DNA from: Limonium bicolor
Taxonomy: Eukaryota; Streptophyta; Magnoliopsida; Caryophyllales; Plumbaginaceae
Assembly: GCA_023374045.1 (NCBI GenBank)
Contig: CM041779.1
Location: 150,537,485 to 150,601,484 of the forward strand
Direction of reading: 5' to 3'
Length of the DNA: 64,000 nt
Positions 33,936 to 34,693 of this stretch are shown here, piece after piece (position 1 is the stretch's first letter; the number at the start of each line of letters is the position of its first letter). The position numbers were made by a program, and so were the translations under genes. A model generated the notes under the pieces. The model saw only the letters and a program-made list of their open reading frames with translations, was not told the DNA's origin and did no database searches.

Positions 33936-34693
33936 TTAGAATTGTCTGAAGGTCAATTCAAACGTCCGGGTTTCATGTGTGTGGCATTGATCACTGCCGA
34001 CGGTGCGGTATTCAGTTTGATCTTCCTGATGCCATGATATAGCATTCCTTGACTGCCCACCCATGGTTAACACATCTCCTGACTTTAGTATTAACTTCCT
34101 TGCGAGATCAGCACGCTTCTGCTCGCCATACACAAATACTGCTGGTATCACCAATGGACCAAGACACCACGGGTACTCCCTTACTTAGAGACTCGGGTGA
34201 CTCGTCCTTATCTTGGTGTAACCTAACCGTCCACCTTTCTGGTAGAAGTTCACAATACACAAATCTGCTTCCACATTTGGAATTGAATCCGTTTCAACTT
34301 GTTGAGCAATTCCCACGGCGTGGTTAACGACCGCACGGAACTCCTCAGGTATACTTGGTACTGTTGCTCCATCTTCAGCTCGCACTTCTTGATATGTCTT
34401 GGTGTAAGGGTTCCAGTCCTTACCCATGCACATCATCTTCAATTGCATTCTTGATCCGTTCGGATATTCAGGTGTGTAGAAACCTCCAGGTTTAGCTCCA
34501 AGTTCGTCGCATCGTCTGATGACATGGATTTGTGCTTCCGGTGTCAGGTATCCATTTAAAAGTATCATACCTGGCTGGATAACCTGACATTGCTCCATTG
34601 GAAAGTCGGTGATGTTGATGGTGGTTTCTTCAAGGTTTGGTGTGGGTGGGATTGGATAACATATATTGAAGGTTCCTTTAAGTTTAGAATTAT
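33936..34693 (-). pseudogene. AlkB-like 2-oxoglutarate/Fe(II) dioxygenase domain captured by the retroelement
   Basis: AlkB proteins remove methyl groups from nucleic acids by oxidation. The minus-strand text matches plant AlkB homologues (ALKBH1-type, 2OG-FeII_Oxy_2): PGMILLNGYL, then GAKPGGFYTPEYPNG, KMMCMGKDWNPYT and the CIVNFYQKGGRLG block. The Fe ligand motif HQD follows (His codon 34216-34218, Asp 34210-34212). SWSIGD, AVFVYGEQKR, LKSGDVLTMGGQSR and a distal YHGI (His codon 34034-34036) come next. The C-terminal R-L-N-x-T-F-R-Q block ends at the stop at 33936. All cofactor-binding residues are recognisable. Four one-base frame jumps (near 34220, 34155, 34045 and 33955) break the present sequence. 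The exon runs without introns after an acceptor at 34694 and is in phase with the gag exon. It lies inside the chromovirus, between gag and protease, on the same strand. Confidence 0.9.

Follow-up and report, generated by a model that had tools for sequence, protein, structure and literature searches.

Introduction

Long terminal repeat (LTR) retrotransposons that carry a gene of the AlkB family have already been described in Phalaenopsis. A 2022 report (PMC9289625) places an AlkB (2-oxoglutarate-dependent dioxygenase, 2-ODD) open reading frame (ORF) of the ALKBH5 type, paALKBH5-like, in Ogre-like Ty3/gypsy elements, attributes N6-methyladenosine (m6A) demethylase activity and RNA binding in vitro to its product, and finds AlkB-bearing elements in no other species in a screen of 121 angiosperm genomes. 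Here we describe a 64,000-nucleotide stretch of the Limonium bicolor genome (contig CM041779.1, positions 150,537,485 to 150,601,484; hereafter the window) holding a Ty3/gypsy chromovirus with AlkB between gag and protease. AlkB in Ty3/gypsy elements is thus not new, and the present element is apparently an independent case involving another AlkB class and another lineage. A sequence-only reading of the window had known of no described LTR lineage with AlkB, a statement overtaken by the Phalaenopsis report; a second such lineage did not turn up in searches of the open-licence PMC literature.

Rice OsALKBH1 is presented in PMC8118384 as a demethylase of N6-methyladenine in DNA (6mA) that works on single-stranded DNA and may act on RNA too, and rice ALKBH1 in PMC10469495 as a nuclear protein with 6mA activity on single-stranded DNA. 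A 2025 review (PMC12786077) states that RNA of plant LTR elements, when it bears m6A, is as a rule sequestered in stress granules, and that ALKBH9B frees ONSEN RNA. Spliced element RNAs are recorded in PMC3735527 for BARE1, whose spliced form can express only Gag, and for Ogre and CRR.

Results

AlkB in this chromovirus family is recurrent and selected, not a one-off. With AlkB as query, the genome from which the window comes (2.92 Gb in 2686 contigs) gave 44,881 first-look candidates, from which 150 places were scored (not a copy count); all of these, the window copy included, matched at E < 1e-104 with 91–100% identity. Three gag exons, AlkB and protease followed one another in the same order in 68 of the 70 loci fetched by AlkB, among them all 30 of L001–L030 (L001 being the window itself); loci L031–L070 had been chosen for a long open frame, and their unbroken fraction is uninformative. 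When an Artemisia ALKBH1 protein served as query, 131 places were scored in the same genome, and the 12 fetched, none of which stood in the list from the first AlkB search (compared by eye), proved to be divergent subfamilies whose AlkB is 57–73% identical to that of the window family. All 12 have a zinc-knuckle exon upstream and a protease downstream of AlkB, and 11 have gag exons 1 and 2. The host's ALKBH1 gene did not come to light in this search, as each of the 12 places fetched is a copy of the element. Because these samples had been chosen by AlkB, the protease alone was also used as bait, yielding 150 places, and AlkB lay upstream in each of the six upstream stretches fetched. The same gag–AlkB–protease order at other loci, which the sequence-only reading had proposed to look for, is thus a regular finding, and the two outcomes that it had held up against its own proposal, a one-off capture and a separate gene fragment inserted with its own target-site duplications, are both excluded.

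Three copies checked further each had both LTRs, a primer-binding site (PBS) and differing 3' flanks, and hence are independent insertions. Their LTR mismatch distances were 1.0, 3.3 and 1.2% over 1.3–1.7 kb, corresponding to ages of 0.40, 1.30 and 0.46 My at the rate that we assume. At one location (G000:C1:516911328-516957198) three AlkB places lie ~22.6 kb apart, perhaps a tandem duplication containing the element. Scans of viral contigs with AlkB, protease and integrase and of genome contigs with AlkB and protease led nowhere, and a protein search for longer, polyprotein-like matches gave 346 candidates, none below 0.001.

Across 40 copies whose 246-codon AlkB exon is unbroken (one 245-codon copy of the original 41 was dropped), the ratio of nonsynonymous to synonymous substitution rates (dN/dS) was 0.120. 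For the 84 codons that the search query did not cover, and whose dN the picking of copies by similarity therefore cannot depress, the same 40 copies gave 0.108 (dS 0.1125, dN 0.0112), in line with the low value in frame-intact copies that the sequence-only reading had named as its check. Within these 84 codons, changes common to at least two copies gave 0.06 and private changes 0.48; this is the pattern of a gene constrained in its source elements and relaxed once inserted. For the same locus set, dN/dS was 0.46 in protease and 0.16 in gag exon 3 (32 copies each). Values within the divergent subfamilies, whose loci were chosen by protein similarity (L088, with 215 codons, was left out), were 0.21 and 0.12, and the comparison of subfamily A with B gave 0.14 at a dS of roughly 1.4; for A with C and B with C the comparison ran into saturated dS. 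The iron ligands are retained almost without exception in the unbroken copies (first His 40/40, Asp 39/40, distal His 40/40), as are both 2-oxoglutarate-binding Arg residues (40/40).

The element in the window lies on the minus strand, with an LTR pair 98.7% identical, TG...CA termini, a 5-bp target-site duplication (TSD), a PBS and a purine tract. Its Pfam order is gag, aspartic protease, RNase H, integrase and C-terminal chromodomain (Retrotrans_gag, RVP_2, RT_RNaseH, Integrase_H2C2, Chromo), which makes it a Ty3/gypsy chromovirus; the Chromo match (E 1.5e-4, 22.1 bits) falls under the 25.1 cut-off. Its features, with the basis for each, are as follows.

40393..40397, no strand: TSD CTCGA, 5' side in minus-strand reading (sequence)
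36495..40392, minus strand: 5' LTR of the AlkB element, TG...CA (98.7% identity with 3' LTR)
36478..36489, minus strand: primer-binding site TGGTATTAGAGC (sequence; TGGTATCAGAGC in 3/3 other copies checked)
35606..36278, minus strand: gag exon 1 (capsid); in the window copy the frame breaks close to the 3' end of this exon (PF03732)
35501..35605, minus strand: predicted intron 1, GT-AG, 105 nt (sequence comparison of copies)
35239..35500, minus strand: gag exon 2 (sequence comparison)
35157..35238, minus strand: predicted intron 2, GT-AG, 82 nt (sequence comparison)
34820..35156, minus strand: gag exon 3 with CX2CX4HX4C zinc knuckle (sequence)
34676..34819, minus strand: predicted intron 3, 144 nt, one donor for the AlkB and protease acceptors (sequence comparison)
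33936..34675, minus strand: AlkB exon, closed by a stop of its own; in the window copy the frame changes at least four times (ORFs, PF13532, tblastn)
34210..34218, minus strand: HxD iron-ligand codons, His-Gln-Asp (sequence)
34034..34036, minus strand: distal iron-ligand His codon (sequence)
33770..33935, minus strand: non-coding spacer, up to and including the AG predicted as protease acceptor (sequence comparison)
33213..33769, minus strand: protease, RVP_2 (Pfam)
31581..33212, minus strand: reverse transcriptase/RNase H region, frame-broken (Pfam match to RNase H)
30385..31638, minus strand: integrase with C-terminal chromodomain (Pfam)
30039..30051, minus strand: polypurine tract (sequence)
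26149..30038, minus strand: 3' LTR of the AlkB element (LTR comparison)
26144..26148, no strand: TSD CTCGA, 3' side (sequence)

The PBS differs at one position from what we take to be the initiator-Met tRNA site, and the tRNA-Arg PBS of Ogre/Tat-type elements was found neither in this element nor in the three copies checked. The label Tekay is our presumption from the hallmarks of long LTRs, Met PBS and chromodomain.

The AlkB match is genuine: PF13532 was found on two adjacent minus-strand frames, an N-terminal one at 34185–34697 (E 7.4e-15, 56.1 bits against a cut-off of 31.2) and a C-terminal one at 33936–34184 (E 6.8e-7, 30.1 bits, just under that cut-off). As the sequence-only reading had it, the HxD and distal His codons stand exactly at the positions listed above, and AlkB lies on the element's coding strand between gag and protease, inside LTRs, PBS and TSD. 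That reading overlooked that AlkB in the window copy is broken, its frame shifting at least four times with the ligand codons in different frames (tblastn), and that gag apparently contains introns. Its statement that AlkB is in phase with gag holds for the open frames themselves but says little, gag being apparently split by introns and carrying frame breaks. The two 3.9-kb LTRs differ by 33 substitutions and 16 indels, an indel rate that predicts 1.5 breaks in the AlkB exon, where four were seen (Poisson P 0.07); decay after insertion could therefore account for most of them, and we do not read them as showing that this copy already had a dead AlkB at the time it moved. Nor are they purely base-calling errors, as an ORF elsewhere in the window (61828–63240) is unbroken and many sister copies are open. 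That ORF, our yardstick for base-calling error, encodes a TAXi-type aspartic protease of 470 aa and is likely a host gene. A search for an AlkB-specific TSD, the second of the circumstances that had been weighed against the proposal, gave a 13-nt near-repeat (12/13) on either side of the AlkB frame, but the 3' repeat falls within the conserved C-terminus.

Within gag lie two intervening stretches with GT-AG borders, 105 and 82 nt long, and a third stretch, of 144 nt, precedes AlkB. In these predicted introns the GC content is 0.36, as compared to 0.58–0.60 in the gag exons. Nucleotide diversity (pi) over 69 loci (the window, L001, being excluded from the variability and splice-site comparison) was 0.106, 0.120 and 0.066 in the introns, as compared to 0.055, 0.051, 0.029 and 0.034 in gag exons 2 and 3, AlkB and protease, and the splice dinucleotides are retained in 65–69 of the 69. 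Exon 3 is open in the predicted phase in 37/69 loci and in the other two frames in 3 and 0; the phase predicted for exon 2 is open in 35/67, and that for the final 100 codons of exon 1 in 30/68. The junction codon is GGA in 69/69 loci for AlkB and GTT in 68/69 for protease, partly by construction of the anchors. One donor can therefore join in frame either to AlkB, with its own stop, or to protease with AlkB skipped. We thus predict that gag has introns and that AlkB is an in-phase alternative last exon within a gag–protease intron.

By sequence and by modeled fold, the element AlkB adjoins the plant ALKBH1-type enzymes. The N-terminal piece matched only rice OsALKBH1 (5xeg/5xoi, E 1.1e-31) in the PDB, and a second PDB search (21 matches) gave OsALKBH1 at 3e-56 as compared to 2e-18 for the next, which were E. 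coli AlkB repair enzymes; an ALKBH5 chain appeared in neither search (1 and 21 matches). A profile search of 5.8 billion proteins returned 193 matches, 120 of them listed, and among the matches listed seven ena/lgn proteins group with the window AlkB (support 100/99); one, P0001, scores 127.3 bits with PF13532. In a tree of 41 rows chosen from protein matches and loci, 18 of them host-type, the element AlkBs form their own clade (99/98) beside a host ALKBH1 clade (97/93), the two joining at 88/81 over a long stem of 0.46. P0001 and P0002 fall together with subfamilies A and B (99/94), whereas subfamily C takes in P0003 and P0053 (99/98); because these relatives interleave with the genome's subfamilies, the subfamily split is probably older than the split of the source species. 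The model of P0002, an unbroken relative (pLDDT 96.4), superposes on OsALKBH1 with a TM of 0.92 at 52% identity, and has a TM of ~0.82 with E. coli AlkB and of 0.54–0.57 with ALKBH5; a model from a two-row alignment reached a pLDDT of only 36. We thus reject ALKBH5 as the nearest class (TM ~0.55 against 0.92 for OsALKBH1, and the missing ALKBH5 chain among the PDB matches).

The AlkB element is nested in an older LTR element (19199–51940) with ~5.7-kb LTRs 96.2% identical, TGT...ACA ends and the plus-strand TSD ACTTC on both sides; the sequence past its 5' LTR presumably resembles a tRNA-Arg-type PBS. The one internal ORF scanned (43346–43915) had no Pfam match, and this older element may thus be non-autonomous. 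A tandem array with a unit of ~174 nt (25040–25846) lies ~0.3 kb past the 3' LTR end of the inner element. Elsewhere in the window are a broken Ty1/copia pol (398–3362; integrase and RVT_2, Pfam), an ORF with a BED zinc finger (10631–11113; Pfam), which we take to be perhaps a hAT transposase remnant, and a tRNA gene match on the minus strand (7288–7369; Rfam RF00005).

Discussion

We propose that splice choice yields a Gag–AlkB protein that acts on the element's own nucleic acid, RNA or cDNA, a reading to which we give roughly an even chance. A single donor, where gag exon 3 ends, would join in one and the same phase either to the AlkB exon, which has its own stop, giving Gag–AlkB, or to protease with AlkB skipped, giving Gag–Pol, so that one transcript would serve two products. 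The enzyme would enter the particle by way of Gag's nucleocapsid part, together with element RNA and single-stranded cDNA. Removal there of N6-methyladenine, or of related methyl adducts, would spare the element a mark that the host could use for restraint. Because of the ALKBH1-type ancestry, single-stranded DNA is, by analogy, at least as likely a substrate as RNA. A more specific form, in which the element packages its own N6-adenine DNA demethylase, Gag–AlkB travelling with the genome and demethylating single-stranded cDNA (and RNA) before integration, independently of the orchid ALKBH5-class case, we advance only tentatively. The sequence-only reading had suggested protection of element RNA from m6A-type marking; m6A would be one candidate substrate only, as the nearest characterized enzyme is OsALKBH1, described as acting on 6mA in single-stranded DNA and perhaps on RNA, and not one of the ALKBH5/9/10 RNA class.

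Several observations weigh against this proposal. Splicing, fusion, packaging and substrate are all things that we infer from sequence, and AlkB could equally be translated on its own. Gag exon 1 has a pi of 0.100, about as variable as the introns, and gag exons are absent from the fetched stretch in two of the 70 loci (exon 1 in L042, all three in L049). Gag exons 2 and 3, AlkB and protease are all open in just 11 of the 67 loci left after exclusion of three of the 70 without all anchors, and AlkB is in one unbroken frame in only two of the six protease-baited copies. Protein similarity decided which loci entered the two AlkB-based samples, and dN in the part covered by the query is lowered as a result. 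Five near copies (L002–L005 and L010), from a sample drawn by similarity to the window sequence, share apparently the same AlkB break as the window; given this shared break, and broken frames in the window copy and in four of the six protease-baited copies, a dead AlkB need not have kept a copy from moving, perhaps with help in trans.

The best-surviving alternative is that the element-made AlkB works in trans, with host RNA or chromatin as its target; it might, for example, erase 6mA or m6A at host or element loci and thereby weaken silencing. We regard this as conceivable but somewhat doubtful. The predicted ALKBH1-type fold would suit such a role, rice ALKBH1 being described as nuclear with 6mA activity on single-stranded DNA (PMC10469495), and an AlkB with its own stop, whether separate or fused, need not remain in the particle; however, the in-phase donor common with gag suggests delivery with Gag, and nothing in the analysis indicates a host target. 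Unlikely, in our estimate, is a repair role, in which the enzyme would mend N1-methyladenine and N3-methylcytosine damage in the packaged RNA or cDNA and would not be there to remove a regulatory mark. E. coli AlkB repair enzymes are indeed next after OsALKBH1 in both fold and sequence, but OsALKBH1 is closest by far in the E values given above and is described as a 6mA eraser (PMC8118384).

We consider it very improbable that AlkB was captured only to hitch-hike as a passenger with no function. Plant elements commonly capture pieces of host genes, and AlkB is broken in the window copy as well as in some near ones; however, the dN/dS of ~0.11 outside the query, the retention of AlkB in further subfamilies differing by 27–43% from that of the window family and the interleaving of relatives from other sources argue against it. 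That a separate host gene fragment was inserted once into one element copy, as the near-repeat bracketing the AlkB frame could hint, we dismiss together with one-off capture and nested insertion in general, given the same position at 68/70 and 12/12 loci, AlkB upstream of protease in 6/6, and a 3' repeat that consists of conserved C-terminal codons.

A multi-copy family with a strongly constrained AlkB makes the part played by plant adenine methylation against mobile elements testable. The predicted splice switch, if true, would be a new way to combine control of Gag and Gag–Pol with delivery of a captured enzyme. Independent capture of another AlkB class by another Ty3/gypsy lineage, if true, would turn the orchid case from a curiosity into a convergent strategy, and would point to methylated adenine in element RNA or DNA as a genuine pressure on the retrotransposons of plants.

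Among known systems, the RNA viruses of the Alphaflexiviridae, Betaflexiviridae and Closteroviridae, named in PMC9289625, also have a parasite-borne AlkB domain, presumably a convergent idea. BARE1, Ogre and CRR likewise have spliced RNA, to which the present family would add three predicted introns and a captured enzyme as an alternative last exon. The nearest solved structure is that of the plant ALKBH1B/C/D enzymes (OsALKBH1, PDB 5xeg/5xoi), host proteins beside which the element AlkBs form their own clade. The Ogre/Tat-type elements of Phalaenopsis (PMC9289625) are alike in being Ty3/gypsy elements with a captured AlkB that was amplified, conserved its ligands and was kept through rounds of transposition. 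However, those are tRNA-Arg-primed, 25-kb, Ogre-like elements with an AlkB of the ALKBH5 class at the C-terminus of a separate 565-aa ORF2, gag-pol being one ORF, whereas here AlkB lies between gag and protease as a predicted exon within an intron, in an element with a chromodomain and a Met-type PBS. An ALKBH1-class enzyme in a chromovirus, as compared to an ALKBH5-class enzyme in an Ogre-like element, is what sets the new case apart.
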